Source of the DNA: Nitrososphaeria archaeon
Lineage (GTDB): Archaea > Thermoproteota > Nitrososphaeria > Nitrososphaerales > JANXEG01
NCBI GenBank assembly: GCA_029775915.1
Contig: JARVKA010000009.1
Coordinates: 1-52,476 of the forward strand
DNA length: 52,476 nucleotides
Reading direction: 5' to 3'
Below the pieces are notes generated by a model. That model was not told where the DNA came from. It made no database searches and saw nothing but the letters and a program-made list of their open reading frames with translations. The translations under genes were made by a program, and so were the position numbers. Of the stretch, positions 8,072 through 49,183 are shown one piece after another; within the stretch, counting starts at the first letter, position 1; the number at the start of each line of letters is the position of its first letter.

Positions 8072-9999
8072 TCAAACTCACCCTCAAATCTTAAATCATG
8101 CTTTTCTAAACTCTTGCCCCTCTTTAAAGCGTATTTTGATAAAAATACCATTATTTTACTAGCCTCCTTATTAGAAATAAGCTTTCTAAGTTTTAATTGA
8201 TTAATACCTTTAATTAAATCTTCAAATATTCCAGACCTTTCAAGTAGGTTAAGTTTAATACAGCAATTGAGGAGTTCATTTTCGAATGAGAAATCCTGCT
8301 CCATTAACTCATATATCTTATTCTTCATAATTTGATCGAAAATCTTCATTCGAATGTATATCTTCTTAAATGGGAGTATTTTATAAACTCGCTTAATAAC
8401 TATAGGTGAATAAAAATTATACTTACGTTCACCCATTGTCTCGTAACATACCATATAAAAAGGTATCTCCAACATAATTGGAGTATCGAACTTTAAGTTT
8501 TTAGGGAGATAAACCGATGCATAAAGAAAGTTACGAATAAATGAAGATTTTAATTCACTTAATCTATCAATTTGTAATACTATCTTATCAGTTCTCATTA
8601 TTATTTCATTTATCCATCTTTTTATATTCTCAATCTTTTGTGTCATCTCACTTTGCAATATTTTAATTCTATCCCTCATTTCATCAAATTTAACCCTATA
8701 CTCTTTATCTATTTTTAAAATCTCCTCATGCCGCCTTTTCTTGACATCTTCAATTTGATAAGATATGCTTGTTAAACGATCTTTCTTCTCCATAATCAAT
8801 AAGTTAGAATCTTTTATCAACCTTTCTAAATCACCTATTTGCTTATTCAACTTTATTAATGAGTCTTGAAGAACTTCTCTTTTTTCATTCTCTTGGCGTA
8901 ATTCACGCTCTAATTGTAATGTAAATTCACCAATCTTATTCATCTCTCCATTAATTTGTAAAAGGCGCTCTCTTATTAAACTCAATTCCTCAATAATTCC
9001 TTTACGTGCTTCAGCTAAATCTTCGAGTTTATTCCGCTCCATTTTCAAAGTTTCAAGTTGAGCTGTTTGACTCAAAAGTTTATTAGATAACTCATTACGT
9101 TTACGTTGTAGTATATCTAATTGCTTAGAAAGAGTTTTACTTTGCTCATTTAAATCCTCTAAAACTTTAGAGTATTCCTTTTGTTTTTCTTGTAAATTTT
9201 GAATTTCTTTTTGTATTATTATTGATTCACTCATTAAGCTTTTAATCTCTTCTTCCATTCTTCTATTAACTTCATCAACCTTTGATTGATACTCAACTTG
9301 TAATTCTTTTATTTTATCTTCAGTCTTATCACTTTCAATCTTTGTTGAATATCTTTTTTGAATATTCTCAATCTCCTTTTTTAGCTTTCCTATCTCTTCA
9401 TTAGTCTTCTCTATAAGATCTTTTCTTATACCATTAAGTGTTTTAATATCTGCTTCAGACTCTTTTAAAATTTGAATAAAATTCGAAACTTGTTGCCAAG
9501 AGAGTTTAGGATTTAAAGAGAGAGCATTAGTAATATTATCCTTCTTATAATGAATAATGCATGATTGTATATCAAAAATTATATCTTTTCTCGGAAAAAT
9601 GCTTATAATGAGTGATCTAGAGCCTTTGAAATCGAGAAAGTTTAATGAATACTCTCTTAATTTATTTAAGTATTCTTCAGTTGATGATTTCTTAATTCCT
9701 TCAATAAAATTTGTATAATTTGGAATTTCATGATAATATATAATTTGAGGGAAAATATTCAAACCATCAATAATCAAACCAATATCTTCTTTCCAAGGCG
9801 CAATCCATAATGGGTAATAAATTTTAGTTATAAATGAAATTTTTACAATACCTTTAAATTTTTTAAAAAGTTTTTTAAATTCGGATTCAATTAAAAGAAA
9901 AAGAAGAGCTATTTCCGCTTCTTTTGGAAGATCCCTCTCCATTCCTTTCTCATCAATCTCAAGCGCGTAAGGTAATACTGGTAATGTTACCTCTTCCAA
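8068..9999 (-). CDS. Large coiled-coil protein of unknown function
   Basis: A 643-residue protein in three parts. An N-terminal globular domain (about 1-165) has several strand-like segments (VKISFITKIYYPLWIAPW, IGLIIDGLNIFPQIIYYHEI). A very long charged coiled coil runs from about 175 to 475 with heptad-like L/I spacing (KKEIENIQKR, LSKQLDILQRKRNELSNKLL). A C-terminal globular domain (about 485-643) contains IPFYMVCYETMGERKYNFYSP and a helical end. No Walker A motif or ABC signature is visible, so it is not an SMC or Rad50 ATPase. There is no signal peptide or obvious TM segment. It overlaps the GT4 gene by 4 nt. I do not recognise the family. Confidence 0.75.
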   Translation of the reverse strand: MEEVTLPVLPYALEIDEKGMERDLPKEAEIALLFLLIESEFKKLFKKFKGIVKISFITKIYYPLWIAPWKEDIGLIIDGLNIFPQIIYYHEIPNYTNFIEGIKKSSTEEYLNKLREYSLNFLDFKGSRSLIISIFPRKDIIFDIQSCIIHYKKDNITNALSLNPKLSWQQVSNFIQILKESEADIKTLNGIRKDLIEKTNEEIGKLKKEIENIQKRYSTKIESDKTEDKIKELQVEYQSKVDEVNRRMEEEIKSLMSESIIIQKEIQNLQEKQKEYSKVLEDLNEQSKTLSKQLDILQRKRNELSNKLLSQTAQLETLKMERNKLEDLAEARKGIIEELSLIRERLLQINGEMNKIGEFTLQLERELRQENEKREVLQDSLIKLNKQIGDLERLIKDSNLLIMEKKDRLTSISYQIEDVKKRRHEEILKIDKEYRVKFDEMRDRIKILQSEMTQKIENIKRWINEIIMRTDKIVLQIDRLSELKSSFIRNFLYASVYLPKNLKFDTPIMLEIPFYMVCYETMGERKYNFYSPIVIKRVYKILPFKKIYIRMKIFDQIMKNKIYELMEQDFSFENELLNCCIKLNLLERSGIFEDLIKGINQLKLRKLISNKEASKIMVFLSKYALKRGKSLEKHDLRFEGEFE

Positions 10000-10832: not shown

Positions 10833-11507
10833 ATGCGTTTAAATTTATCAATGATATCAGCAGTAGTGATAGATTATGATAGAACACTAACTGATGAGAA
10901 TCTTAACTTATCGATTAAAGCTTTAGAAGCTTTAATAAGGCTTAAGGGAATGAGAGGTTGGCGTATTATTATAGCTTCAGGCAGACCTTTAAGCTTCTTC
11001 ATTAGCCATAATGAAATTATTGAGTTGGTTGATGCGATAGTTGCTGAAAATGGTGCTGTAATATACCTTCCAAAAGATAGTAAAAAAATTATTATAAGGT
11101 TTGATGATCTTTCTAAGATTAAAGAGAGATTGTTAAAATTTAACATACCTATTGAAACTTTTGATGTGATTATATCGGTTAAGAGGGAAGTTGAAGAGCT
11201 TATAAAAAAACTCATTAATGAATCTGGTGTTGATGCTAAAATAGAGTATAATGTAGATACAGTTATGATTATGCCAAAAATAGTTAATAAGTTAAGAGGT
11301 GTTCAAATGGCTTTAAAATTGCTAAATATTAAAGGTGGCTTTATAGCGTTTGGAGATGGAGAGAATGATGCTGAAGTTATAGATAAAGCTAATATCGGCA
11401 TTGCAGTAGCTAATGCTACTGAGATAGTTAAAGCTAAAGCAGATTATATTACCAATAAGCCTTATGGTTGTGGTGTAGCTGAGTTTATCGAAAGTTACCT
11501 TCTTTAA
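10833..11507 (+). CDS. pgp: Archaeal phosphoglycolate phosphatase (HAD family)
   Basis: A 224-residue HAD hydrolase of the Cof/SPP-like archaeal phosphoglycolate phosphatase type, a Mg-dependent cytosolic phosphatase. Motif I is DYDRTLT at residues 14-20 with both nucleophile-region aspartates (D14, D16), although the usual DxDGTLT glycine is arginine. Motif II is IIASGRPLSF, and motif IV is FGDGENDAEV followed by the typical IGIAVANA and ADYITNKPYGCGVAEFI. Length is normal. A TTTAAA box at about 10795 precedes the start. The true substrate could be another small phosphate ester. Confidence 0.85.
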   Translation: MRLNLSMISAVVIDYDRTLTDENLNLSIKALEALIRLKGMRGWRIIIASGRPLSFFISHNEIIELVDAIVAENGAVIYLPKDSKKIIIRFDDLSKIKERLLKFNIPIETFDVIISVKREVEELIKKLINESGVDAKIEYNVDTVMIMPKIVNKLRGVQMALKLLNIKGGFIAFGDGENDAEVIDKANIGIAVANATEIVKAKADYITNKPYGCGVAEFIESYLL

Positions 11508-11540
11508 ATATCAAGTTTGTTGAATTAATAATAAATCATT

Positions 11541-12257
11541 TTATAATTTGGAGTAAATTAATATAGTTAATAAATCGCCAATTACCAACATGATTATAAA
11601 ACCTATAGTTATGTAAAATATTAGAGGTATAGCTGGCGTTGCCCATACACCACTATCTCGAAGGTAATCTTCATTAGCTCTTAATAAAGAGATTTTGAAT
11701 TTACGCTTCCCATTTTTCACTTCCTCTAAAGCAAAGTAAAACCTTTTCCTCTCATTAGTATTTAATTTGTATCCAAGTAAACAAACTAAGAACTTTTTCC
11801 ATAAACGCTCAGATTCAAAACCTTGAAAGATTTTTTTACCTCTAATTATGCGTGTTAAATTCTTAATAAGATAATATATTGGTAAAGCTAAAGTTAAGAG
11901 AATTGAATTGGTGAATGTGATTATAGGTGAGAATGGATATAAAGAGTAAGGTGGTTGATAAATAGGCAGTAAAAATGATAGTGATATAAGTGCTTTTGCA
12001 TCAGCACCACCATAAAAACCACCGTAATAAAGTCCAATAGCGATAATTGAAGTAATGCCAATTGAGATAATTATTGATAAAAATTTGCTAAATAACATGC
12101 TTTCGAATACGAATTCATAAATTAATGTAATAATACCGATCGTTGAAAAAATGATCCAAAGTTTATCAGCCACCTCGCGATTCTTCAAATCACTATATGA
12201 AGCATATGTTAGCATAATGAGGCATAATAAAATTCTAAGTGTGAGAAGATTTAACAT
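11541..12257 (-). CDS. Type IV prepilin/prearchaellin peptidase (A24, PibD/FlaK-like)
   Basis: A 238-residue membrane aspartyl protease that removes class III signal peptides from archaellins and pilins. Both catalytic aspartates are in the expected contexts: YSDLKNREV with D23 after the first TM helix, and the GGADAK motif with D86 at the cytoplasmic face. Around six hydrophobic helices are present, with a basic cytoplasmic loop around residues 135-180 and a C-terminal TM segment (IPLIFYITIGFIIMLVIGDL). No pilin or archaellin gene is visible in this window, so its substrates lie elsewhere. It converges with the HAD phosphatase gene. Confidence 0.88.
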   Translation of the reverse strand: MLNLLTLRILLCLIMLTYASYSDLKNREVADKLWIIFSTIGIITLIYEFVFESMLFSKFLSIIISIGITSIIAIGLYYGGFYGGADAKALISLSFLLPIYQPPYSLYPFSPIITFTNSILLTLALPIYYLIKNLTRIIRGKKIFQGFESERLWKKFLVCLLGYKLNTNERKRFYFALEEVKNGKRKFKISLLRANEDYLRDSGVWATPAIPLIFYITIGFIIMLVIGDLLTILIYSKL

Positions 12258-12308
12258 TAATGCAACCTCAATATCAATATTCCGATCATCACATTTTTAA
12301 TTTTCTAA

Positions 12309-12665
12309 TTAAAAGTTTGTTTTTGTTCCAACCCTCATAACGTATAAATGAGAGAAGGAAGAATCTTCTGTAGCACCATGCCAATGCTTCTCTCCAGCAG
12401 GTATTAATATAATATCACCAACAGTTACTAATCGCTCCTCTTTTTCAGTCGCAACTATACCCTTCCCTTGTATTACATAAAGTAATTGATCATGATCATG
12501 AATGTGAAATTTATTTTTAGCACCTGGTGGAAATGTTACAATTGCAACTCTAAATTCCTCAGAGCCCATAGATTCATCAAAAAGAGTGGTTACTTCTACA
12601 GTGCCTAAAAATATACCTCCAGATCTTTTTTCAACTTTCGCATCTTTAACATTTACTATCTTCAT
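12309..12665 (-). CDS. Cupin-domain protein
   Basis: A 118-residue single-domain cupin. Cupin motif 1 appears as FHIHDHDQLLYVIQGKG and motif 2 as VGDIILIPAGEKHWHGA, giving the usual metal-binding histidines. The N-terminal strands (VKDAKVEKRSGGIFLGTVEV) complete the small beta-barrel. Such stand-alone cupins are found as isomerases, dioxygenases or stress proteins; nothing here tells which. It is transcribed divergently from speD. Confidence 0.85.
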   Translation of the reverse strand: MKIVNVKDAKVEKRSGGIFLGTVEVTTLFDESMGSEEFRVAIVTFPPGAKNKFHIHDHDQLLYVIQGKGIVATEKEERLVTVGDIILIPAGEKHWHGATEDSSFSHLYVMRVGTKTNF

Positions 12666-12833
12666 AATTAATCACCACCATTATACAGCTTCCTATATTA
12701 ATATTTGCATATAAATTTAATCGAGCATTTAAGAATTTACTATAAGCCTTCTCAAATATTTTTCAATAAGATTTAAAATTAAAGTGATATTGTGAGTAAA
12801 AGTTTATGAATTTTACCATTTTTAAAAACAAAA

Positions 12834-12843
12834 TTTATATATG
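12834..12843 (+). promoter_or_regulatory. TATA box of speD-bpsA
   Basis: TTTATATATG preceded by an A/T-rich BRE-like stretch. Archaeal spacing of about 25 nt predicts transcription start near 12862-12866. This leaves a leader of about 70 nt before the ATG at 12934, which is long for this window, where most promoters sit about 30 nt from the start codon. Confidence 0.5.
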
Positions 12844-12880
12844 AGATTTCCCTAAAAAACAAAGGGATAAGACAAGTTAT

Positions 12881-12991
12881 GCTTGGTTTATATTACACCA
12901 AGCTCGGGAGTTCGACGATATGGGGTGTCCGTAATGGGCATCCACATTATCGCCGAATTTCGGGGCGTAGACCCCAAAAAGATATCCCGAG
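12881..12991 (+). promoter_or_regulatory. Candidate structured RNA element at 5' end of speD
   Basis: About 100 nt of roughly 55 percent GC in an AT-rich genome, able to fold into several stems. Stem A pairs GCTTGGT (12881-12887) with ACCAAGC (12897-12903). Stem B pairs TCGGGA (12904-12909) with TCCCGA (12985-12990), stacking directly on A. Inside B, GGGTGTCC (12923-12930) pairs with GGGCATCC (12936-12943) around a 5-nt loop, holding the ATG at 12934-12936 at the loop/stem junction. GGGG (12962-12965) can pair either with CCCC (12972-12975) or with the CCGA/CGCC region at 12951-12956, two exclusive states. The pairings are read directly from the sequence; a switch function is inference. Confidence 0.45.
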
Positions 12992-13287
12992 TGGAGGAAC
13001 TTCAAGTAATTTTAGATAAAATAATTATTAAATCCGGTCTTCATGTTGTATCTTCAAAATTCCATCAATTCGAACCTTATGGTGTTTCTGCCATTTATCT
13101 TCTCAGTGAATCACACTTAAGTGTTCATACATGGCCTGAATATAGTTATATGGCTTTAGATATTTTTACTTGTGGGGATGATAATCCAGCTTTGAAAGCT
13201 TTCGAGTTATTAATAGCAGAGTTTCAACCAAAAAAGGTTAAAAAAAGGATTATCAGAAGGGATGTGATTGGAGAAGATAAAAGCTAA
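12934..13287 (+). CDS. speD: S-adenosylmethionine decarboxylase proenzyme
   Basis: A 117-residue prokaryotic-type AdoMet decarboxylase proenzyme that self-cleaves to make a pyruvoyl cofactor and produces decarboxylated SAM, the aminopropyl donor for polyamines. The LSESHLSVHTWPEY stretch contains the Glu-Ser cleavage site, the processing histidine follows, and FTCGDD supplies the catalytic cysteine. An arginine-decarboxylase activity, known for some crenarchaeal paralogues, cannot be excluded. I chose ATG 12934 because the family begins a few residues before G-x-H; in-frame TTG 12883 or GTG 12925 are alternatives. The first 60 nt are unusually GC-rich. It overlaps bpsA by 20 nt. Confidence 0.9.
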   Translation: MGIHIIAEFRGVDPKKISRVEELQVILDKIIIKSGLHVVSSKFHQFEPYGVSAIYLLSESHLSVHTWPEYSYMALDIFTCGDDNPALKAFELLIAEFQPKKVKKRIIRRDVIGEDKS

Positions 13288-14314
13288 AATTTTAAATGAA
13301 ATTGCAACTTCAAATAAAACTTTTTGGGAGCTTCTCGATAAATCAAATTGCTCTCTTAAAGATTTTATCACAACGTTGAGAACGCTTTATAAAAAAGGTA
13401 TTATTACTACTGATGGTAATTATTTTTATTTAACCGATAAGGGTAAGAATAACATTAATTTAAAGAGTTTAAATTTTAAGGTAGATATTTGTTCAAATTG
13501 CTATGGTAAGCGTATAATTCCAAGAATGAAATTTAAAGAGATTTTGGAAGGTTTTAAGCGTATAATTGAGAAAAGACCACGTCCAAATCTTGATTTCTTT
13601 CAAGGTTATATGTTAGAACAAGATGTGATTTCAAGGGTTGCTTTAATGCATTATTATGGCGATTTGGATGGAAAGAGTATTATTTTAATTGGTGATGATG
13701 ATTTATTAAGTATCGCTTTATCTTTAACTGAATTACCATCACGTATAACAGTCTTAGATATTGATAAAAGGATAGGTGAGTTTATAAAATCTATTAATAA
13801 GGATTATGGCTTTAATATTGAATTTATAGAGTATGATGTATCTAACCCATTGCCTCAAGATCTTTATGAAAATTTTGATACTTTCTCTTCAGAGCCCCTT
13901 GAAACATATTCTGGTTTAAGAGCATTTTTAATACGTGGTGTGAGTTGCTTAAAAGAAAATGGTGTTGGTTATTTTGGCTTAACTCTTTATGAAGCCTCAC
14001 TTAAAAAATGGTTAGCTATACAAAAGCTCCTTTCAAAAATGAATTGTGTTATTACTGATATAATTCAAGGCTTCTCAACTTATCCAATGGATTACGGTAA
14101 TTTGAATTATGAAGAATTCGCTTACAATTTGGGTTTTAAAGTTGGAAAAAATCTTGGTGTGAATTGGTATAAATCTGCTTTGTATAGATTTGAAATACTC
14201 GGTAAAGCTAAGTTACCACTCGAATTTAATAAAAAATTAAGGGTTAAATTTATTGATTTAAATGAGGATATAACTCATCCAAAACTTTATAAAAAAATTT
14301 TAAAAGAAGAATAA
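13268..14314 (+). CDS. bpsA: N4-bis(aminopropyl)spermidine synthase (branched polyamine synthase)
   Basis: A 348-residue aminopropyltransferase of the BpsA type. An N-terminal winged helix (about 1-65) and a CSNC pair (C75, C78) precede a Rossmann methyltransferase-like domain with the diagnostic IGDDDLLSIALSL (GDDD at 142-145), VLDIDKRIGEFI and SSEPLETYSGLRAFLIRG. BpsA adds two aminopropyl groups from decarboxylated SAM to spermidine, giving quaternary branched polyamines typical of thermophiles. The start is TTG inside the end of speD, with a 20-nt overlap, so the enzyme and its donor-making partner are translationally coupled. Confidence 0.9.
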   Translation: MEKIKAKILNEIATSNKTFWELLDKSNCSLKDFITTLRTLYKKGIITTDGNYFYLTDKGKNNINLKSLNFKVDICSNCYGKRIIPRMKFKEILEGFKRIIEKRPRPNLDFFQGYMLEQDVISRVALMHYYGDLDGKSIILIGDDDLLSIALSLTELPSRITVLDIDKRIGEFIKSINKDYGFNIEFIEYDVSNPLPQDLYENFDTFSSEPLETYSGLRAFLIRGVSCLKENGVGYFGLTLYEASLKKWLAIQKLLSKMNCVITDIIQGFSTYPMDYGNLNYEEFAYNLGFKVGKNLGVNWYKSALYRFEILGKAKLPLEFNKKLRVKFIDLNEDITHPKLYKKILKEE

Positions 14315-14547
14315 AATTTTATTCTTAAACCCATGCTTAGAATTTAAATTCATTCAAAACAAAAATTAAAGATTGTGTGAGTGTTAAAAATTTATTAAAG
14401 TTTTTGAACATTTTTAGTGTTAGATTTTTTTGAAAAATTAAAATTTTTCCTTACACACTTACACTAAATGGAATAATAGTGAATGGTTTCAATATTAGAA
14501 AATTTTAAATTAAAGAAAATTGCAAAAATAAGTTTGCAATTAACAAT

Positions 14548-15189
14548 TTGCAAGTCTTGTTTAAATTATCAAAAATGGTGAATTGTGAGGTTATAGAGAG
14601 AATCACAAGATTTACTGTAAGGGTAAAGATTAATGGAGAAGAGAAATTAGCATTATTGCGTAATACAGGGCGCCTTTATGATTTAATTTATCGAGGTTCA
14701 TTAGGGGTATGCTTAAAAACTCAATCACCAAAGAAGAACGAATTTATTTTAATTGGTATAAAGGTAAATAAAGAGCAAATCGCTTTAATCGATACTAAAT
14801 TGCAAGCTAAAGCTTTTGAACAAACTATTAATTTGAATTTAATCCCTTGGTTGTATGGGTGGGTTATTAATTCTAAAGAGGTTTTTATTCAAGATTCTAA
14901 GCTTGATTACTCTATTTTAAGTTTAAATAATGAGCAAGGCTTTTTAGAGTTAAAATCTGCGATTCAATTTAATGGTTATTACGCTAAATATCCAGATTGT
15001 CCAACTTTACGTGGTCGTAAGCATATTCACCTATTAAGAATAATTAAGAGAAATGGATATCGAAGTATTATAGCATTTATAGTAGCCCATCCTTACGCTC
15101 AAGCCTTTACACCAAATGTAAATTCAGATCCTAATTTAGCTGAAGAATTGAATCAAGCGTATAAAGAAGGTGTTGAAGTAATGCGGTGA
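14548..15189 (+). CDS. sfsA: SfsA family nuclease-like protein, 3' end frameshifted
   Basis: The reading frame gives 213 residues with the SfsA hallmarks: LLRNTGRLYDLIY, a degenerate DTKLQAKAFE, LELKSAIQF, YPDCPTLRGRKHIHLL and FTPNVNSDPNLAEELNQAY. SfsA proteins have an OB-fold and an endonuclease-like core; the old name refers to sugar fermentation stimulation and the molecular role is unsettled. The frame stops right after GVEVMR, whereas the family normally continues about 20-25 residues; that tail is present in another frame at 15186-15254. The start is TTG 14548 or ATG 14575. Confidence 0.8.
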   Translation: MQVLFKLSKMVNCEVIERITRFTVRVKINGEEKLALLRNTGRLYDLIYRGSLGVCLKTQSPKKNEFILIGIKVNKEQIALIDTKLQAKAFEQTINLNLIPWLYGWVINSKEVFIQDSKLDYSILSLNNEQGFLELKSAIQFNGYYAKYPDCPTLRGRKHIHLLRIIKRNGYRSIIAFIVAHPYAQAFTPNVNSDPNLAEELNQAYKEGVEVMR

Positions 15190-15254
15190 AGATTTATTTA
15201 ATTAAAGATGGTTCAATTATTTTACTCAACCCTAATTTACCAATTCGAATTTAA
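15186..15254 (+). other. Out-of-frame C-terminal tail of SfsA
   Basis: A GTG-initiated 22-codon frame reads VKIYLIKDGSIILLNPNLPI and ends in a stop. It corresponds to the final strand segment of SfsA proteins (pattern GVEV-x-aYxxxxxxxGIxLxxxLPI). It begins four bases before the stop of the main frame, so a single-base frame change near 15180-15185 separates the two. This is a real frameshift mutation, a stop-start overlap splitting the protein, or a sequence error. Confidence 0.6.
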
Positions 15255-15259
15255 ATATA
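15250..15259 (+). promoter_or_regulatory. TATA box of trmO
   Basis: TTTAAATATA lies about 30 nt before the TTG start at 15289, which is the spacing for a leaderless transcript. It overlaps the end of the SfsA tail. Confidence 0.45.
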
Positions 15260-15288
15260 TCTACTATTATTATATAGTGTGAGAGTTC

Positions 15289-15714
15289 TTGAGCTACATA
15301 TTGAGACCTATAGGAGTAGTTGAGAAATGTGAGGGTGAAATAGCTAAAATAAGAATTTACAATGATTTTATAGAAGGGTTAGAAAGAATAAATGATTTCT
15401 CACATATAATTATAATTGGTTGGCTTCATCTTAGTGATAAAGAAGAAAAAAGAAAAACGATTAAGGTTAAGCCTAAAAGACATCTTGGAGCACCTATAAT
15501 TGGAGTATTTGCATCTAGGAGTCCCGATAGGCCTAACCCAATCGGGCTTTGTGTTGTTGAACTCTTAAAGGTGGAAGATTCTACTTTAATTGTAAAGGGA
15601 TTAGATTTTTTTGAAGGTACACCAATTGTTGATATCAAGCCTTATGTACCAAGGGCTGATTGTATTATTAATGCTAAAGCTCCAGAATGGACGCTTCATG
15701 GTCCACCGATGTAA
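15289..15714 (+). CDS. trmO: tRNA (N6-threonylcarbamoyladenosine37-N6)-methyltransferase
   Basis: A 141-residue TrmO/YaeB (UPF0066) single beta-barrel protein. IGVVEKCEG at the start, FSHIIIIGWLHL, the SAM-site signature ASRSPDRPNPIGLCVVEL and LDFFEGTPIVDIKPYVPRAD are all diagnostic. It methylates N6 of t6A37 in certain tRNAs, using SAM. The start is TTG at 15289, supported by the TATA box about 30 nt upstream. The t6A precursor is made by the KEOPS proteins encoded further along this window. Confidence 0.92.
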   Translation: MSYILRPIGVVEKCEGEIAKIRIYNDFIEGLERINDFSHIIIIGWLHLSDKEEKRKTIKVKPKRHLGAPIIGVFASRSPDRPNPIGLCVVELLKVEDSTLIVKGLDFFEGTPIVDIKPYVPRADCIINAKAPEWTLHGPPM

Positions 15715-15748
15715 AGGCTTAAAAATATTGCTCGTAAAGGCATCAAGA

Positions 15749-16156
15749 TTATAGATATTGTGTTATTGTAGATTCTAAAATTTTCTTAGGCATAGCTCCT
15801 ATGATTTGATCCACAAGCTTTCCATTTTTAAAGATTAATAATGTTGGTATACTCATTATTCCATACTCCATTGCAGTAGCATTATTTAAATCCACATTTA
15901 ATTTTCCAAATACGATTTTACCCTTATACTCTCGAGCCAACTCTTCTATAATTGGAGCGATCATGTGGCATGGACCACACCATTCAGCCCAAAAATCCAC
16001 TACTAATAATGGGTATTTACGAATAGCTTCTTTAAAATTCTCATCAGTGAGTTCAATCGGTTCACTTGGTAAATCTTGCTTTTCACCTTTAATTCGATTC
16101 ATCATCTCTCGTAACTTCTTTTGCTTGAGCCTTTCTAATTCATCTATATCGCTCAT
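15749..16156 (-). CDS. trxA: Thioredoxin
   Basis: A 135-residue thioredoxin with the active site FWAEWCGPCHMIAP (C60, C63), the cis-proline in SIPTLLIFKNGK and the GAMPK loop. About 30 extra residues at the N-terminus (DELERLKQKKLREMMNRIKG) form a charged helix not found in the minimal 105-residue thioredoxins. There is no signal peptide, so it acts in the cytosol as a disulfide reductase. It converges with trmO. Confidence 0.93.
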   Translation of the reverse strand: MSDIDELERLKQKKLREMMNRIKGEKQDLPSEPIELTDENFKEAIRKYPLLVVDFWAEWCGPCHMIAPIIEELAREYKGKIVFGKLNVDLNNATAMEYGIMSIPTLLIFKNGKLVDQIIGAMPKKILESTITQYL

Positions 16157-16257: not shown

Positions 16258-17502
16258 TCATTCATATCTCAATGCTACTACAGGGATCATTCTTGATGCT
16301 CGCCAAGATGGTAATAATCCAGCTAAAGCACCTATCGCTACTGCCATGGCGAATGTTCCAATTAATAATTCAGGCGTTATTATAGGCGTAATAATTGTTG
16401 ATTGAATAGCGGTAGCTGCTTGCCCAGGTGGTCTAAAACCAATAAATCCTAAACCCCCTCCACCAAACATCCCTATAATAGCAAAGGATAAGAATGAGCC
16501 GAGAATTATGCCGATGAGTCCTCCTAATGCACCAGTTAAAGTCGCTTCTGCTAAAAATATACCAAGTATATCCCTTGGGCTGTAACCAAGTGATTTCAAA
16601 ATACCTATCTCTTTTGTTCTTTCATGAACCGATGTAAACATCGTTGTCATTATACCGATAAAAGCGACTATTACCGACATAAAAGCTACAGAGACTAAAA
16701 TTGCTGAGATGCTTTCATTTACCGATTGAATATTAGATAGCATTGCAGAAACAGCAACTACTCTAACCCTACTGCCATACAAGTCTGATATTGCATTTTG
16801 AATATTACTAACATCATTAATTGTACGTGCGACAACGTAAATGCCCGAGTATGTTTGTGAACCAGTTAATGATTTGCCAATACCTATTGGTACAAAGATA
16901 GTATCATCAGGATTTATAAAGAAACTTTGCCCGAATGGTTTAAGTATCCCACTAACTACAAAAGCTCTACTTACTTTTACAATTCTCGTTCCAATGCGTG
17001 TATTAATCGATGTTGAAATAACATTATTAAGCGTTACACCTTGAGAGCCATCTTGTGGATTTGCTATATTCGATCCAATAACAGCTTGAGATAATGCTTT
17101 TGGAAACTCACCTTCCTCAAGGGATATTCCAGGCAATATCGACTTTAACTTAGAGATATCTAAAGCTATTATTGAAATATCTTTAGTTTGACTACCACTT
17201 CTAATTGTAGCTCTAATATTGTAATATGGTATAACAACTTCTACATTTGGTATTTGGCTAATAGTTCTCACTACTGTATCATCCATTCTTAAACTAGATC
17301 TCATACCTGGCATAACGAAGATTGTTGTTAAACCAAGTTTATTGAATCGTTCAGTAACACTAGCACCAAACCCTTGTGTAGCACCAACTAAAGCGACTAT
17401 TACAGCAGGACCGATTGTAATACCGAGAATTGTTAAAATAGCCCTTAACTTTCTATTCTTCAATGCTCCAAAAGCGAATTTTATAATTCGTAATATTTTC
17501 AT
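16258..17502 (-). CDS. ABC transporter permease, MacB/FtsX type
   Basis: A 414-residue permease. TM1 is near residues 15-40 (AILTILGITIGPAVIVALVGA), a large extracytoplasmic MacB-type domain spans about 45-260, and three further TM segments follow in the FtsX-like region (VSVAFMSVIVAFIGIMTTMF, ALGGLIGIILGSFLSFAIIG, LLIGTFAMAVAIGALAGLLP). The conserved cytosolic coupling loop VHERTKEIGILKSLGYSPRDI and final LPSWRASRMIPVVALRYE are classic. Such mechanotransmission permeases work with a LolD-type ATPase, encoded 9 nt upstream, and with periplasmic-side partners rather than transporting through a channel. It is the last gene of the cassette. Confidence 0.93.
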   Translation of the reverse strand: MKILRIIKFAFGALKNRKLRAILTILGITIGPAVIVALVGATQGFGASVTERFNKLGLTTIFVMPGMRSSLRMDDTVVRTISQIPNVEVVIPYYNIRATIRSGSQTKDISIIALDISKLKSILPGISLEEGEFPKALSQAVIGSNIANPQDGSQGVTLNNVISTSINTRIGTRIVKVSRAFVVSGILKPFGQSFFINPDDTIFVPIGIGKSLTGSQTYSGIYVVARTINDVSNIQNAISDLYGSRVRVVAVSAMLSNIQSVNESISAILVSVAFMSVIVAFIGIMTTMFTSVHERTKEIGILKSLGYSPRDILGIFLAEATLTGALGGLIGIILGSFLSFAIIGMFGGGGLGFIGFRPPGQAATAIQSTIITPIITPELLIGTFAMAVAIGALAGLLPSWRASRMIPVVALRYE

Positions 17503-17511
17503 AATCCCACC

Positions 17512-18219
17512 TTAATCACTATGCATTTTACTCTTATCACTATGAATTACAACTCGCTCAATCACACCATCTCTTATATGAAAGACTCTTTGAGCATAAG
17601 CCGCAACTTCCATATTATGTGTAACGATTACCATAGTAATCTTCAACTTCTCATTAAGATATTTTAATAATTTCATAATTGAGTGAGTTGCTTTCGTATC
17701 TATATTACCAGTAGGCTCATCACCTAGAATTATTTTGGGTTGGGTAATAAGCGCTCTAGCTATAGCTACACGTTGCTGCTCTCCTCCACTCAATCTATCT
17801 GGCGTGTGATGAATTCGATTAGCTAATCCAACCCAACCTAATATTCTTCGAGCTTTTTCCCTTATCTCTCGATCTGGAATATTTCGTATAAGTAAAGGTA
17901 CTTCAACATTTTCTAATGCGGTCATTCTTTGAATGAGATTAAAAGTTTGAAATATAAAGCCAATCTTTTGATTTCTAAGTTCAGCAAGGGCATAATCATT
18001 AAGCTGAGATAAATCTACACCATCGATGAATACTTTTCCCTTTGTTGGTCTATCTAAAGCACCCATTAAATTCAAAAGTGTGGATTTGCCACTGCCCGAT
18101 GGCCCCATTATACAAACGAATTCTCCAGCATTTATATGAAGAGATATTCCTCTAAGTGCTGGAGTATAATATCCACCACTCGTATAAACTTTATGAACAT
18201 TCTCGCACACAATACTCAT
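17512..18219 (-). CDS. ABC transporter ATP-binding protein, MacB/LolD type
   Basis: A 235-residue ATPase. Walker A is GPSGSGKST (about 39-47), the Q-loop is [20 protein letters not shown], the ABC signature is [15 protein letters not shown], Walker B is [12 protein letters not shown] and the H-loop is [12 protein letters not shown]. The LNxxxxLxxxxxxxxxRNxxxGFxFQxFxL pattern is that of the lipoprotein/MacB class of ABC ATPases. It overlaps the upstream small membrane protein gene by 4 nt and precedes the permease gene by 9 nt. Confidence 0.95.
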
Positions 18220-18575
18220 TGATTAGCCTCCTCTTTAGGAGTTTCAAAACTTTCCCAAGGAGGGGGTTGTGAAGATTCTTGAGTTTCTTGAGGCTCTATC
18301 TCCTTTTTTAATTTTGATGGTAATGATAAACCTATAATAATAAGAGCTAAGCCACTCGCTCCAATTAGGTAAGAAATAACCCTTAAATAACCCATTTGTT
18401 GCGAAAGAGCGGTTGAAGTGATTGCTAATTGAGCACCACTTCTACTCGATGGGCTTGGATTAAAGGTTTGAGGGAGGCCGAATAATAATATTCTAAGTTG
18501 CGTATCTGAATATGCTAAAGTTATTAAAGCTGCAGCGATGAAAACTATACCGAATATTAATAAAAATTTACGCAT
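18216..18575 (-). CDS. Small two-TM membrane protein of the ABC cassette
   Basis: A 119-residue protein with an N-terminal hydrophobic segment (FLLIFGIVFIAAALITLAYS), a short exposed stretch rich in S/Q/P, a second TM segment (VISYLIGASGLALIIIGLSL) and an acidic, proline-rich cytosolic tail (EPQETQESSQPPPWESFETP). No family is recognised. It overlaps both neighbours (4 nt with the ATPase gene, 8 nt with the large secreted protein gene), so it is probably an accessory subunit of the same complex. Confidence 0.75.
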   Translation of the reverse strand: MRKFLLIFGIVFIAAALITLAYSDTQLRILLFGLPQTFNPSPSSRSGAQLAITSTALSQQMGYLRVISYLIGASGLALIIIGLSLPSKLKKEIEPQETQESSQPPPWESFETPKEEANQ

Positions 18576-21375
18576 TAAATATCACCCAATATTTTAAATC
18601 ACCAAGTATAAACTTCATACTAAATATTCTATTGGGAGATATTAGAACTTTAACTACTGACTCTTGTGCAGTCTTTTTTATCGATTTTCGAACCTTCAAC
18701 AATACAATTATCGTAAGAATAATAATTAAAGCTAATGCTGTAAAGAAAGCCAAGCCTATATATGTCATACCTAAAATCAATGTTTGTTGTGTTGTTGGTT
18801 GGGTTACTCTAATTTGCTCTTGAAAAGTACCTATAGTTATACTTGTTGAAGTAGTAACACTCATAGTTTTATTGTAATTATCACTGTAAGTTATAATTAT
18901 TGTAATAGGGTATGTTCCATTTCTCGCTCTTCGATCAACTTGTGCAGTAATACTGAATGGAGTTATTACATTCGTATCCACTTGGCCTATATATTGTGGA
19001 ACACACGTGATGAATGGTGCTGTGCTACGTGCACTAGCAATTGTATACATGGCTGGAGTATTTCCACGATTGAGAAGATTGCCCACAATGGTAAAATTAC
19101 CCCCAGGCGTAACTCGTGATGGTGAAACTTCCAAATCTTGAATCGTCATATATATAAGGCCATGTATAGCAAGATTGATAATTTGAGTTTCAGAATAGGA
19201 TATACCAGAAGAGTCTTCATAACTCATATCCATTTGAAGTGTGCAAATTTTATCAATTGAATCGAGTGTGGCGAAGATTTTTGGCGATATGGTAATACTA
19301 CCTTTTGCTGGAATAGATTCAATAAACCATTTATTTTGACTAGCTAAACTTATTGTAGTTGATGGTGTTGATAAAGTTATTACAATTGAATAAATCGGAT
19401 TTACATCAATGTTGGTAATTTTAATTCCAAGATTGTTAACAATACCAGCGGTTAATATGTTATCATTAAGTGAGATTAAGATTGGGCTTATTAACTTCTT
19501 AATTGATAGTCCTATCACTCTACTCTCTGTATATGTTATCTCACGTTCATCCAAGTATGTGAGTGTGAGCTGTAATTGAAGAGAGCTTCCTTGAAAGCTT
19601 TGAGGTACTAATAACGATACAATAAAAGAAGTATTGGCGTTTGGTTGAATTATATTTGAATATGTTTGCTTATCCCCTGAGATTATAATTGCTGGTGATG
19701 GTGCTATAATCGATAGAGATAAATTATGAATAGGTTGGCTTCGAGTATTTGTTACAGTTATGCATAATTTACTTACAGTATTTGGAATTATCGAACTTAT
19801 ATTTTGAGATATTTTTAAAAAACTTGAAGAATCTTTAGCAATTTTAAAACCTATAACTCTAATTGATGATTGAGTTGAGCCGTCTGGCTTACGATAAGAT
19901 ATGGATAACTGCAATTGTATCATGGATCCTTCAGCTGATGGGGAAACATAAATTGAGATTGGAGATTCAATCACGCTAAATCCTTCAAGTTTTTGAAAGT
20001 ATAGAGAGTTGCTACCACTTATAATCGCTAAACCACTTGGTGGTGAAAATATAATTTCTAAATCATTAATTGTTAATGGTCCTAAATTTCTTATTAAGAT
20101 GGGGATTTTGTTAATCATACCTGGTAAAAGGTTTGAAGTTCGAGTTTGAATTTCTATAATTGAGTATTCAGAAGGTAAGATATTAAACCCTATTACTCTA
20201 CTTGAGGATTGTAAAAAGCCATATCCATCTCTATAAGACATTGAGATAGCTATTTGAATATTTGAAAGTGCTAAATTATTAGTTACATGAATGGTTAACT
20301 TTTTATAAAGTACATCATTCGGTGCAATAGATTTAATACCAATTCTATTATCACCATTTACAATTACTACACCATTGGGAAGAGTTAAAGTAGCTTCAAA
20401 GGATGATGCTTTTCCCGATCCCGTATTCTCAATTCTTAATAATAATTCATTCAAGCCTCCTGGAATAAGATAACTTGAATTTGCTGAGATGATGATATTT
20501 GGTTTGCCTAAAAGAGGAATATTCACTTCGATTTCAACGGGAATTGCTCGAATAGGCCCATCCTTTGATACCATATAATATTCAATATTCATTGTTAAAT
20601 TATAATTACCAATCTTAGCCTCAGGATCTACATTAAGAATAAATGTAAAGGTAGCTATCTCTCCAGGTTTAACTGTTGAACTATAAAATGATGTAGTTTT
20701 ATCCCCACCTAATGTATTAGAGAAAGGATATTTGAGATTGAGTGATGCAATGAGTGATGTTATAGTGTAATTAACTTGATGGCTTACCATAATCGTTAAT
20801 GGTACACCAGAATCACCAGGTGCAACAGATAACTTTGAGTTAACCTCACCCCAATGTACTGAAACTATTCTAAAATCACTTACAAAAACTTTTAACTCAT
20901 AAGTAGCAGGTCTTGCATAATATACTAAACCTTTAACCCTAATATAATGAAAACCAGCTCTCTCTGTTACATAAACGATTTTCTCAATGCCACCTACATC
21001 CATATACTCCCAATTCTCTGAAGATGCTAAAAGTCCAGTGTAGCCATCTACAGTATCTGGTGAGTATAAATATAGATCTAAACTCGCTTTACCAGGAACT
21101 ACAAGAATTATACTAATCTTTTGCCCAGGTTGTAAATCTATTTTAAACCATTGATCTTGATCGTAAAAATCAAATAAATACCTACCAGATGTTATTTGTA
21201 ATGCATTTTTTGGTAAGTTGCCAGGATTTTGTGCACCATAAATAGGTTGTAGATTTATAAGTATGGGTGTAAGAAAGATTAAGCAAATGAAAGTCACAAT
21301 ATAGTATTTCTTGAGTTTATACACGCTTATGCGCTTATAGGTATTTTTTATGCTAAATAAATTAATATTATTCAT
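18568..21375 (-). CDS. Large surface-anchored protein with PPC-like and CARDB-like repeats
   Basis: A 935-residue exported protein. A signal peptide or N-terminal anchor lies at about 25-48 (YYIVTFICLIFLTPILINL), followed by a pre-peptidase-C-like domain (about 55-165: QITSGRYLFDFYDQDQWFKI, then SLDLYLYSPD). Four or five Ig-like repeats of about 110-130 residues follow, each with a P-G-x-x-N/S-x-L-x-I-x-I-x-N motif and ending RVIGFNI, RVIGFKI, RVIGLSI or QIINLAI. A C-terminal TM segment near residue 870-890 and a basic tail anchor it. This looks like an extracellular partner of the MacB-type transporter. It overlaps the next gene by 1 nt and the small membrane protein gene by 8 nt. Confidence 0.8.
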   Translation of the reverse strand: MNNINLFSIKNTYKRISVYKLKKYYIVTFICLIFLTPILINLQPIYGAQNPGNLPKNALQITSGRYLFDFYDQDQWFKIDLQPGQKISIILVVPGKASLDLYLYSPDTVDGYTGLLASSENWEYMDVGGIEKIVYVTERAGFHYIRVKGLVYYARPATYELKVFVSDFRIVSVHWGEVNSKLSVAPGDSGVPLTIMVSHQVNYTITSLIASLNLKYPFSNTLGGDKTTSFYSSTVKPGEIATFTFILNVDPEAKIGNYNLTMNIEYYMVSKDGPIRAIPVEIEVNIPLLGKPNIIISANSSYLIPGGLNELLLRIENTGSGKASSFEATLTLPNGVVIVNGDNRIGIKSIAPNDVLYKKLTIHVTNNLALSNIQIAISMSYRDGYGFLQSSSRVIGFNILPSEYSIIEIQTRTSNLLPGMINKIPILIRNLGPLTINDLEIIFSPPSGLAIISGSNSLYFQKLEGFSVIESPISIYVSPSAEGSMIQLQLSISYRKPDGSTQSSIRVIGFKIAKDSSSFLKISQNISSIIPNTVSKLCITVTNTRSQPIHNLSLSIIAPSPAIIISGDKQTYSNIIQPNANTSFIVSLLVPQSFQGSSLQLQLTLTYLDEREITYTESRVIGLSIKKLISPILISLNDNILTAGIVNNLGIKITNIDVNPIYSIVITLSTPSTTISLASQNKWFIESIPAKGSITISPKIFATLDSIDKICTLQMDMSYEDSSGISYSETQIINLAIHGLIYMTIQDLEVSPSRVTPGGNFTIVGNLLNRGNTPAMYTIASARSTAPFITCVPQYIGQVDTNVITPFSITAQVDRRARNGTYPITIIITYSDNYNKTMSVTTSTSITIGTFQEQIRVTQPTTQQTLILGMTYIGLAFFTALALIIILTIIVLLKVRKSIKKTAQESVVKVLISPNRIFSMKFILGDLKYWVIFNA

Positions 21376-22634
21376 TAATAACTCACCAATAATTTGCGCA
21401 ATATTACTTTAAGTAATGAATAAACTATAAAGATAGTCATACCAATTATAATGAGCCATTGAAAGTTTGTGAGATTTATTAGTGATGGGATATAAAGGGG
21501 TGCGAATAAAAAAATTTCAGGATCTTGAAAGATCTTCTCATTAAAGTGGGGGAAGGTGAGTTGATGAGCAAATACCATACGATAATGCCAATTTATATTC
21601 TCACTAAAGCTTGGATTTAACCCTTTCACATTAACACCTTCAGGCACATTTATAGGTGTTGATATTAAAAATACTGGTTGAAGAGTAGAAATTACAACAT
21701 TCATTTGATAATTACCATCTATGATTGCATCTGGGTTATGAGTTATTAAAGATTTCACAGATTCGCTAACCTTCTCTATTAAAGCTACTCTTTGATCTTT
21801 AATCTCTAAAAAGTCTTTATATTTGCCTTCCTCTTTAATTATAACCTCATTCTTACCATGATAAAGAACTGCTGAAATGAGTGCTAATTTAACATCCTCA
21901 CCAGAGAGCCACTTCATATTATCAATACTATACCCAATCTTAACTTTCGGTCCGTTGCGCTCAAGAGTTAAATGATAATCGAGGCGTATATTCACGGTAT
22001 CCCTTTCAAATTTATATTTGTAATCTATAAAGCGCCAATTGAAACTTTTAACCGATGCTGATATACTCCATTTATATTCAAATGGTACTTCAGCTCTTAT
22101 TACAGTTGGACCATTAAATGTCCAAGACCATAATTGCTCACCACGCTCAAAACGATTAAGCATAGGTGCTAATGGATATATTTTAAGAATTTTATCCTTA
22201 TTAAGATTCCAATTAACCTCTTCATCAAAGAGTTCTTTATTCAAGCTCTTTCTTACTGCTACATTAAGAATACCATCACCATTCATATCATCAAATTGTA
22301 TTAAGTAAAGTGGGATGTAAGTTAATGAGTAATCGAGTGAGTCGTCTTTTAAAAGCTTTACCATTTGGAGTATTGGATATGTATCATAAACTCTTAAAGA
22401 AGTGCTACTTTCTCTCAAGCCTCTTTCAGATGCTATCTCCCATGCAAAAGTAATATCGACCTTACCACCATCTTGTGTTGGTATTGTAATTTTAAATCCT
22501 GTGTATCGAGAATCTTTATATCCTGCATGAACATAGGTTATAGATGGCCCATCAGCTTGAGCAAAAAAAGTGGGGCTGGAGAGTACTGCCACGAGCATTA
22601 GCACCAACAGTACTCTCCTTAACATTTTTCTCAC
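21375..22634 (-). CDS. Secreted, C-terminally anchored protein of unknown function
   Basis: A 419-residue protein with a clear signal peptide (MLRRVLLVLMLVAVLSSPTFFAQA), a beta-rich ectodomain (YVHAGYKDSRYTGFKITIP, FDDMNGDGILNVAVRKSLN) and a C-terminal TM segment (FQWLIIIGMTIFIVYSLLKV) with a short basic tail. The DDMNGDGILN piece resembles a calcium-binding loop. No known family is recognised. It abuts the large repeat protein gene (1-nt overlap) and lies 2 nt from the PepSY protein gene, so it belongs to the same operon. Confidence 0.75.
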   Translation of the reverse strand: MRKMLRRVLLVLMLVAVLSSPTFFAQADGPSITYVHAGYKDSRYTGFKITIPTQDGGKVDITFAWEIASERGLRESSTSLRVYDTYPILQMVKLLKDDSLDYSLTYIPLYLIQFDDMNGDGILNVAVRKSLNKELFDEEVNWNLNKDKILKIYPLAPMLNRFERGEQLWSWTFNGPTVIRAEVPFEYKWSISASVKSFNWRFIDYKYKFERDTVNIRLDYHLTLERNGPKVKIGYSIDNMKWLSGEDVKLALISAVLYHGKNEVIIKEEGKYKDFLEIKDQRVALIEKVSESVKSLITHNPDAIIDGNYQMNVVISTLQPVFLISTPINVPEGVNVKGLNPSFSENINWHYRMVFAHQLTFPHFNEKIFQDPEIFLFAPLYIPSLINLTNFQWLIIIGMTIFIVYSLLKVILRKLLVSY

Positions 22635-22636
22635 AC

Positions 22637-23566
22637 CTACTTACGTAGCGGTGGAAGAGCAATAGGCATTATTTCACCAGTCTTGCCATCTACTTTTACA
22701 TTACCGATTGTATTACCTTTATAATCAATGATCGGTACATTGTAAATAAATCGGAGTTGCTTTGGTTCACCAGCACTCCAACCTTTCTTTAATGATTCCT
22801 CAACAACTTTTTTAGCATCTTCGGATGTTGGTGTATTAAGCTTCGCAAGAATTATATTCATAATCACTTTATCTTTGTATTTAATACCCACAACCCATAC
22901 GTTAACTCTATCCTTTACTTCACCAACTTTAAATTCCTTTATAGCATTATTTACTATAGTCTTAGCTTGTTCACTATTTATCTTAAGTATCGTTGAAGGC
23001 CTTCTTAGAATCTCACCACTCTTTCCATCAACCATTACGTAACCTATCGTTAAATTATTTGAGTCAATAATTGGAACAATGTATATAGTTCCCATTAATT
23101 TTGGTTCACCAGCACTCCAACCTTTCTTTAATGATTCCTCAACAATACTCCTCGCTTGCTCTACGGTTGGAGCACTAATCTTACTTATTCGAATTGATAA
23201 TACTACACCCTTATCATCTTCTATAGGAATAATCCAATCCATTTTAGAAGAAGAAATTGTACCTATTTTGAAGTTAGGAATGTCCGCTTCAACAATCGCT
23301 CTAGCTTGGTCAGCATTTATAGTTAAATTACCAAACCAGCCCCGATTTGTAGGCACTATTGGACCTTTAAAGCCCCATTTATTGAGATCGATATATGCTA
23401 CTCCGAATGAATAACCAATTCTTGATTGAGCGAGCTTAGAATGGTCAAAGAGTGTTGATGTTCTTGATTCTGCTCTAAATGCTTCACTTATTGAAAGTGT
23501 TAAACCTATCGTTACCGTTACTACTAAAATGGCCACCATTGCTATCAATACGATTTTACGATTCAT
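22637..23566 (-). CDS. Exported protein with two PepSY-like repeat units
   Basis: A 309-residue protein with an N-terminal signal/anchor (IVLIAMVAILVVTVTIGLTLSI) and two tandem modules, each with a PepSY-like half (I/L-x-A-D-Q/S-A-x-x-I-V...KVG, ...GVKYKDKVIMN) and a half ending in EESLKKGWSAGEPK...VPIID...GYVMVDGKSGEI. PepSY domains occur in protease propeptides and sensor proteins. The two modules share a 46-nt exact DNA repeat (described separately). It is the first gene of the ABC cassette; the regulator gene lies about 110 nt upstream. Confidence 0.8.
   Translation of the reverse strand: MNRKIVLIAMVAILVVTVTIGLTLSISEAFRAESRTSTLFDHSKLAQSRIGYSFGVAYIDLNKWGFKGPIVPTNRGWFGNLTINADQARAIVEADIPNFKIGTISSSKMDWIIPIEDDKGVVLSIRISKISAPTVEQARSIVEESLKKGWSAGEPKLMGTIYIVPIIDSNNLTIGYVMVDGKSGEILRRPSTILKINSEQAKTIVNNAIKEFKVGEVKDRVNVWVVGIKYKDKVIMNIILAKLNTPTSEDAKKVVEESLKKGWSAGEPKQLRFIYNVPIIDYKGNTIGNVKVDGKTGEIMPIALPPLRK
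22761..23145 (-). repeat. 46-bp exact direct repeat inside the PepSY gene
   Basis: The segments 22761-22806 and 23100-23145 are identical over 46 nt and encode the VEESLKKGWSAGEPK stretch in both PepSY modules. The flanking DNA of the two modules has diverged much more, so the identity points to gene conversion or a recent copy. Confidence 0.85.
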
Positions 23567-23674
23567 ATTCCCACACCATTTAATTAAGAAAAAAGGTTTT
23601 TGAGCCTTTTCTTTCGAATTTTTCGAAGATTTACAAGGATGATATATTCGGAATTTTCGAATAAGATTTCATAA

Positions 23675-24505
23675 TTAGTAAATATTAGATAAAATGAACG
23701 CCAACGCTAATGAAATGTAAAGTGTAATGGAGGCTGAAAGAGCAGCTTTTTCTGCACCCAATCCCTTAGATAGGGATATGGCTGAGGTAAGAAAGCAAAG
23801 GGAATAACCAATCCCAACAATCATGAGAATTTGAACTTGGAGGCTTGTTAATGTAATTTGAAAACTTTTTGTTATCACATATACCGTTGGCAATATAAGA
23901 TTAGGGATGAGTGAAAAAGCTGAGCCTAAAAAGAGATACTTTACACCTTCAGAATTTCTATAAACAATATAGGATATTAGATTTGCAAGGATATTAATCA
24001 TCAAATATCCAAAGATGAAGATTATAGGTATGTAAAATTTTTGGATTGGCAAATACTCCACATATATTAGAATAAGTGGGTATAATTCCGATAAATATGT
24101 GATTAAAGCACCATAAATAAGAGTTAGAGTGGCGATAAGAATTGAGAGTTTTGGCATAGCGTATAAATGAGAAATGAGCTTCCATCCTATGAGCCATAAA
24201 GTGATATAACCAGTTATTGTTGAATCACGCTTAATAAAGCGGCTCGATGTTAATTTTTCACTACTTTTTAATAATAATTGATATGCAAATTTTCCCTTAT
24301 CATTCAAATAATACTTTCTATCTTCATTTTGCTCAATGAGGTTTTTAAGGAGATCAAGTTGATAATAAAGAGTGCCAGTACTAACATTTAAATAAGCTTT
24401 AAGATCGGTAAAACTACCAAATTCATGCTCACCAAGATAACGAATTATCTTCCTCCTTAAAGGATGGCCAAGCATAGTGAAGAAATATGAGATTTCATCC
24501 TCCAA
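23675..24505 (-). CDS. Membrane-anchored winged-helix regulator
   Basis: A 276-residue protein. Residues about 1-80 form an ArsR-like winged helix (FTMLGHPLRRKIIRYLGEHE, FTDLKAYLNVSTGTLYYQLD, YYLNDKGKFAYQLL). The rest has about six hydrophobic segments (ITLWLIGWKLISHLYAMPKL to ITLYISLALAFILSNIY). One-component membrane regulators of this plan are common in archaea and respond to envelope signals. It lies just upstream of, and in the same direction as, the six-gene ABC/secreted-protein cassette, so it is a likely regulator of that cassette; this is inferred from position. Confidence 0.82.
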   Translation of the reverse strand: MEDEISYFFTMLGHPLRRKIIRYLGEHEFGSFTDLKAYLNVSTGTLYYQLDLLKNLIEQNEDRKYYLNDKGKFAYQLLLKSSEKLTSSRFIKRDSTITGYITLWLIGWKLISHLYAMPKLSILIATLTLIYGALITYLSELYPLILIYVEYLPIQKFYIPIIFIFGYLMINILANLISYIVYRNSEGVKYLFLGSAFSLIPNLILPTVYVITKSFQITLTSLQVQILMIVGIGYSLCFLTSAISLSKGLGAEKAALSASITLYISLALAFILSNIY

Positions 24506-49177: not shown

Positions 49178-49183
49178 CGCGAG

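Follow-up and report, generated by a model that had tools for sequence, protein, structure and literature searches.

A MacB-class ABC locus with an immunoglobulin-like surface rod and a candidate local operator in a Nitrososphaeria archaeon

Overall organization of the locus

The stretch of DNA analyzed here (the window, 52,476 nucleotides) is contig JARVKA010000009.1, or C10, of the 10-contig, 1.47-Mb genome of a presumably heat-loving Nitrososphaeria archaeon (order Nitrososphaerales, GCA_029775915.1). At 16258-24505 it contains seven open reading frames (ORFs), all on the minus strand, which center on the permease and ATPase of a MacB-class ATP-binding cassette (ABC) system and on a long surface protein with immunoglobulin (Ig)-like repeats. 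An ORF check of the window agreed with the initial annotation on the coordinates and strand of all seven genes and on the tight packing of six of them. These six structural genes, running from the PepSY gene to the permease gene, have ends that overlap or lie at most 9 bp apart, an operon-like arrangement. The seventh gene encodes a regulator and sits upstream on the same strand, with a 108-bp gap before the first structural gene.

The ATPase and permease belong to the type VII class

The permease (16258-17502, 414 residues) consists of a MacB_PCD domain (PF12704, residues 22-240, 7.9e-20) and an FtsX domain (PF02687, residues 271-405, 1.2e-20), both above the gathering score, with a large extracellular domain between the first and second transmembrane (TM) segments. 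Its matches in the PDB include MacB, YtrF and LolE. The LolD/MacB-type ATPase (17512-18219, 235 residues) matches ABC_tran at 1.6e-35 and retains the Walker A, signature, Walker B and H-loop motifs intact; its best PDB match is MJ0796 (1f3o, 3.1e-65). A MacB_PCD-type extracellular domain followed by an FtsX transmembrane domain, together with a LolD/MacB/FtsE-class ATPase bearing complete motifs, places the pair in the type VII ABC class, and the Pfam matches bear out the earlier assignment of a MacB/FtsX-class pair with surface partners. In bacterial type VII systems, closure of the nucleotide-binding domains (NBDs) driven by ATP shifts the extracellular domain (PMC5985334, PMC12646458). By analogy, the intact ATPase motifs and the full-size MacB_PCD domain suggest a similar mechanotransmission here.

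The pair could not be assigned to LolCDE, FtsEX or MacAB. The top-scoring NCBIfam models were LolCE for the permease and LolD for the ATPase, both under the curated equivalog cut-offs (79.4 versus 362.5 bits needed, and 259.7 versus 307.8 bits, respectively), which excluded membership in LolCDE. FtsEX was rejected likewise, with 18-25 versus 225-255 bits for the FtsX models and 219 versus 264.9 bits for FtsE, and with no recognizable hydrolase among the operon genes. The permease also scored under the MacB equivalog cut-off, and Pfam and NCBIfam gave no match to the MacA-type (HlyD-like) adaptor family among the operon proteins, which ruled out MacAB proper. Nor did the operon reveal any peptidase, chaperone or lipoprotein motif.

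A NEW3/CARDB rod forms a conserved core with the ABC pair

The largest protein of the operon (18568-21375, 935 residues) has an N-terminal hydrophobic segment, an array of NEW3/CARDB-like Ig domains and a C-terminal TM anchor. Its own Pfam matches are weak, and a PDB sequence search returned nothing meaningful. However, a 1370-residue homologue in a genome of another family (G196) matches NEW3 (5.7e-39) and CARDB (1.5e-11) strongly, which establishes the 935-residue protein as an Ig-like repeat surface protein. Of its earlier description as PPC/CARDB-like, the CARDB part thus holds, joined by NEW3, whereas PPC was not confirmed.

In a survey of 200 genomes of the class, including the source genome, 170 encode 935-like proteins and 181 encode the permease. 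With the 935-like protein as the anchor, 28 loci were fetched, not counting those of the source genome and of a second species of the same genus (G191). Each of them has an adjoining ATPase and/or permease, two of them resolved by a wider fetch. Conversely, with the permease as an independent anchor, 27 of 28 loci have a rod neighbor, recognized by phmmer in 21 and by Pfam NEW3/CARDB matches in six more; the two sets have several genomes in common. Among the listed matches, at least 57 of 83 places with a 935-like protein lie within 5 kb of a permease, compared to about 1% expected by chance, and several of the places unpaired with a permease (for example L060-L063) have an adjoining ATPase. 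A further class of the phylum has the rod/ABC pair or trio as well. The commonest order is ATPase, rod and permease, with ends overlapping or nearly touching. The length of the rod varies from about 470 to 1370 residues while the hydrophobic segments at both termini persist, as would be expected of a spacer. Altogether, a LolD/MacB-type ATPase, a MacB-type permease and a NEW3/CARDB surface protein constitute a core that is near-universal in the class.

A second trio is present in the source genome (C9, about 11216-15937; L008:5217-9938), in which the rod gene is convergent to the permease and ATPase genes, and the same holds for G191. In a tree of 36 permeases, the C9 permease belongs to a distinct deep clade together with those from most other families of the order, whereas the permease of the window groups with those of G191, G165, G170, G196, G004, G020 and G026 (support 93/97). 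The second cassette is an ancient, deeply diverged copy.

A small membrane protein marks one permease subclade

The two-helix membrane protein (18216-18575, 119 residues) matches no Pfam family. Homologues were found in G191, G165, G170 and G004, and in G196, where the homologue is fused in front of the ATPase; all those detected fall within the clade of the window permease. This fusion implies that the C-terminus of the 119-residue protein is cytoplasmic and tied to the ATPase, and is the strongest hint, from sequence, that the protein is a probable fourth subunit. Small extra membrane subunits are known from bacterial type VII systems, such as SweC/SweD (PMC6705773) and YknW (PMC5985334). 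In both G165 and G170, a DNA-methylase-like gene lies beside the 119-like gene.

The accessory genes are conserved in nested layers

The complete gene order is retained in G191, which argues that the arrangement is not due to chance. The G191 locus has in addition an 86-residue gene resembling a winged helix-turn-helix (wHTH) protein between the homologues of the 419- and 935-residue proteins (L006:10817-11077), which is not present in the window. In G196 the order is regulator, 419-residue protein, the 119-ATPase fusion, 1370-residue rod and permease, and the PepSY gene is missing. Elsewhere in the class, beyond the source genome, G191 and G196, we did not find the regulator, 419-residue or PepSY partners with the cassette.

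The 419-residue protein (21375-22634) is a C-terminally anchored surface protein of an orphan family, with no match in Pfam or NCBIfam and nothing meaningful in a PDB search with either the single sequence or a four-row profile. The family occurs in three of the 200 genomes, the source genome included, and in a distant genome (G241), where the homologue stands alone on a 14.9-kb contig away from ABC genes. The homologues share 58% (G191), 36% (G196) and 32% (G241) identity with it, and a scan of the genome collection returned solely the G196 contig JARVJZ010000002.1. A calcium-loop-like motif had been pointed out in this protein; Asp116 and Gly121 are indeed invariant in the four homologues, but the motif as a whole is just partly conserved. 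The PepSY protein (22637-23566, 309 residues), secreted or anchored, has relatives in the same genus only (two of 200 genomes), and a PDB sequence search with it gave nothing meaningful. The PepSY repeat reported earlier is visible by eye as two tandem PepSY-like modules, with EESLKKGWSAGEPK occurring twice, although Pfam returned one match (3.6e-08). Homologues of the regulator are present in 30 of the 200 genomes; outside the three genomes above, only one weak match had an ATPase within the fetched flank.

As the accessory genes are confined to few genomes, one conserved seven-gene system is ruled out, contrary to the initial annotation, and only the 935-like protein, ATPase and permease recur widely. 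As to whether the partners occur elsewhere without ABC genes, the 935 family stays with the ABC genes at nearly all loci, whereas the accessory genes do not, as exemplified by the 419-residue homologue of G241. The locus thus has a nested organization, consisting of a widely conserved core, the 119-residue protein that marks a subclade, the regulator and 419-residue protein shared by two families, and the genus-specific PepSY protein.

A membrane-bound regulator and a tandem palindrome

The 276-residue protein encoded upstream (23675-24505) combines an N-terminal winged HTH with several TM segments. Repeated wHTH matches of the ArsR/HTH_20 type cover residues 9-74, all weak and below the gathering score, and the hydrophobic segments were read from the sequence. 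A DNA-binding domain and a TM region in one protein define a transmembrane transcription regulator, in line with the one-component membrane regulator annotated initially; HTH regulators bound to the membrane are common in archaea (PMC10269533). The orthologues of G191 and G196 are 76% and 59% identical, respectively, and nearly identical in the region of the recognition helix.

The gap between the regulator and the first structural gene (23567-23674), already suspected to be regulatory, contains the palindrome TTCG-N7-CGAA twice, at 23613-23627 (proximal) and 23647-23661 (distal). The two copies are spaced by 34 bp, with a 19-bp spacer, and stand just before a candidate stretch of B recognition element (BRE) and TATA box (23590-23612, minus strand). 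The whole window contains only these two copies, compared to 0.26 expected by chance. A tandem with an equal spacer length precedes the first structural gene in both G191 and G196, though this gene encodes the PepSY protein in the genus and the 419-residue protein in G196. We did not find the tandem elsewhere in these three genomes, or in G165 and G170, at up to two mismatches. Between the window and G196, 13 of 15 bases are identical in the proximal palindrome and 10 of 15 in the distal one, compared to six of 19 in the spacer and seven of 23 in the leader; 13 of the 23 positions of the promoter stretch are shared as well. The tandem palindrome is probably the operator of the 276-residue protein, judging from these sequence features, and this protein would act as a dedicated local regulator of the operon. 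The position of the palindromes directly upstream of the promoter fits activation.

A proposed mechanism

We lean, with somewhat better than an even chance, towards the reading that in this single-membrane archaeon the locus encodes an inducible ABC machine of the type VII (MacB) class, with the rod in place of MacA. The ATPase would bind and hydrolyze ATP and, with the four-helix permease, set the extracellular domain of the latter in motion. The 119-residue protein, held to the ATPase, may be a further membrane subunit. Since the operon has a NEW3/CARDB rod instead of a MacA adaptor, we take the rod, anchored by its C-terminal helix, as the putative archaeal extracytoplasmic partner, which would convey motion or cargo outward, perhaps to the surface layer (S-layer). 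The membrane-bound HTH protein might sense a condition of the membrane and control this one operon through the two palindromes next to the promoter. As lineage-specific surface accessories, the 419-residue and PepSY proteins could either handle the substrate or be cargo themselves. In cells under stress, such a machine would most likely clear the outer membrane face of hydrophobic or peptide molecules by removing or extruding them.

Several observations weigh against this reading. No component of the operon indicates a substrate. In the G196 genome, a 935-like gene lacks ABC neighbors (L109, 5513-9184) and an ATPase-permease pair lacks a rod gene (L110, 6926-8904), although these could be separated partners that act in trans. 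Lone permeases were found at L107 and L111, and the loci of G165 and G170 (L104:6607-11275 and L105:6891-11622) carry the 119-like protein, rod and permease with no adjoining ATPase. AlphaFold2 modeling of the permease from a two-sequence alignment gave a predicted local distance difference test (pLDDT) score of 44, too poor to confirm the architecture, and the structure model of the 419-residue protein, also from two sequences, is too poor to use (pLDDT 34). Moreover, a reversed control pattern gave 0-3 matches per genome at two mismatches, so the case for the operator rests on position, spacing and conservation and not on rarity alone.

Other roles, whether Lol-like, FtsEX-like or proteolytic, are less supported than that of an extractor or exporter. 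A Lol-like machine, which would pull membrane-anchored surface proteins such as the 419-residue protein out of the membrane and pass them to the rod or S-layer, is favored by the LolCE and LolD models being the best in NCBIfam and by the two anchored surface proteins in the operon. Nevertheless, we consider it unlikely, given that both models fall under their cut-offs, as described above, that inspection revealed no obvious lipobox in the signal region of either surface protein, and that the core lacks the 419-residue partner almost everywhere.

Rather unlikely, too, is an FtsEX-like device that transports nothing, in which ATP-driven movement toggles remodeling of the cell surface or S-layer. 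A type VII system may do nothing but pass on a signal, together with small membrane co-factors (PMC6705773), and the long rod would suit such a role. Against it, the FtsX models score far under their cut-offs and the operon is devoid of any identified hydrolase. In addition, the extracellular domain of the permease spans about 220 residues, the size seen in MacB, which is larger than that of FtsX.

The trio might instead be a housekeeping exporter with which the regulator, 419-residue and PepSY genes are co-transcribed without a shared function, as their sparse distribution and the isolated 419-residue homologue of G241 would allow. We give this a rather small chance, however, since the order of regulator, 419-residue protein, (119-residue protein), ATPase, rod and permease persists over two families together with the tandem palindrome, despite reshuffling and a 419-residue protein of only 36% identity.

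PepSY domains are known as peptidase propeptides and inhibitors. The proposal of the initial annotation that an extracellular machine releases, folds or proteolyses surface proteins gained no specific support. Folding or proteolysis, with the PepSY protein as a protease inhibitor or chaperone, is very unlikely, since Pfam and NCBIfam detect no peptidase in the operon and the PepSY protein, limited to one genus and missing from the otherwise conserved G196 operon, cannot be central.

Comparison with known systems

The reading as a MacB-class machine with a rod partner finds its closest counterparts in MacAB(-TolC), YknWXYZ and Spr0693-0695. They all share the NBD class, a permease with MacB_PCD and FtsX domains, and an adjoining extracytoplasmic partner, and YknW is an extra membrane protein comparable to the 119-residue protein. 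The ATPase and permease are separate proteins here, as in YknYZ and Spr0694-0695, whereas they are fused in MacB. The major difference lies in the partner, which has the MacA adaptor fold in these pumps as opposed to a C-terminally anchored NEW3/CARDB Ig rod. The present locus differs further in its one-component membrane HTH regulator and the absence of an outer membrane. Even pumps of this class that work without an outer membrane use MacA-type adaptors, such as YknX and SpMacA (PMC5985334). YbbAP-TesA and FtsEX-SweDC likewise combine the same ABC engine with varied extracytoplasmic or small membrane partners (PMC12646458, PMC6705773); however, they are bacterial, and their partners are a hydrolase or regulators of hydrolases instead of an Ig rod.

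Among archaeal proteins, MJ0796 of Methanocaldococcus jannaschii (1f3o, 1l2t), the best PDB match to the ATPase, differs in having been studied as an isolated NBD. It is a classic ABC structure, and its biological role is undescribed in the literature that we found. The adjacent MJ0795 and MJ0797 presumably form the same kind of trio with it, and our literature search found no mention of either. TERMP_00597 of Thermococcus barophilus is an NPCBM/NEW3 protein detected in the secretome and encoded beside ABC genes, and its STRING partners are reported to be ABC transporters; it was mentioned in passing and read in terms of sugar transport, and no regulator, 419-residue or PepSY partners were described (PMC10667668). 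The 276-residue protein resembles ArnR/ArnR1 and other archaeal transmembrane regulators in having an N-terminal HTH, a membrane region and a one-component design. The likeness is one of architecture, and ArnR targets archaellum genes.

A literature search on archaeal MacB/COG1361/NEW3 systems revealed no dedicated study and no description of either the trio or the whole set, in agreement with the earlier remark that the set was not recognized as a described system. A paper on Haloferax motility mutants deals with a different ABC system. Bacterial members of the MacB class are understood in detail, but a 2018 review of the family does not mention archaea (PMC5985334). Altogether, a known engine is combined here with local accessories and with a rod partner that represents a widespread, little described archaeal variant. 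An Ig-rod protein accompanies almost all permeases examined in the class, so that the family now has a specific and testable partner in archaea. The conserved tandem palindrome could help to find the inducer of the system. As a more tentative generalization, the combination of rod, LolD-type ATPase and MacB-type permease might be the general archaeal form of type VII systems, in which rods of widely differing length replace MacA and bridge the membrane to the S-layer, and the present locus a switchable version with its own regulator and cargo-handling surface proteins; we hold this to be possible, though with distinctly less than an even chance.

Other features of the window

Directly downstream of the permease gene, on the same strand, lies a thioredoxin gene (15749-16156) that is also kept in G191 and shows no signal peptide by eye. 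Farther away, a 643-residue ORF without a Pfam match (8068-9999) is located in a stretch of low (28%) guanine-plus-cytosine content and overlaps a glycosyltransferase gene (6779-8071). At the other end of the window, a cluster encoding a MoxR ATPase, a DUF58 protein and a DUF4129 protein (48242-51839) is preceded upstream by the gene of an ArsP_1-type permease (47019-48071).

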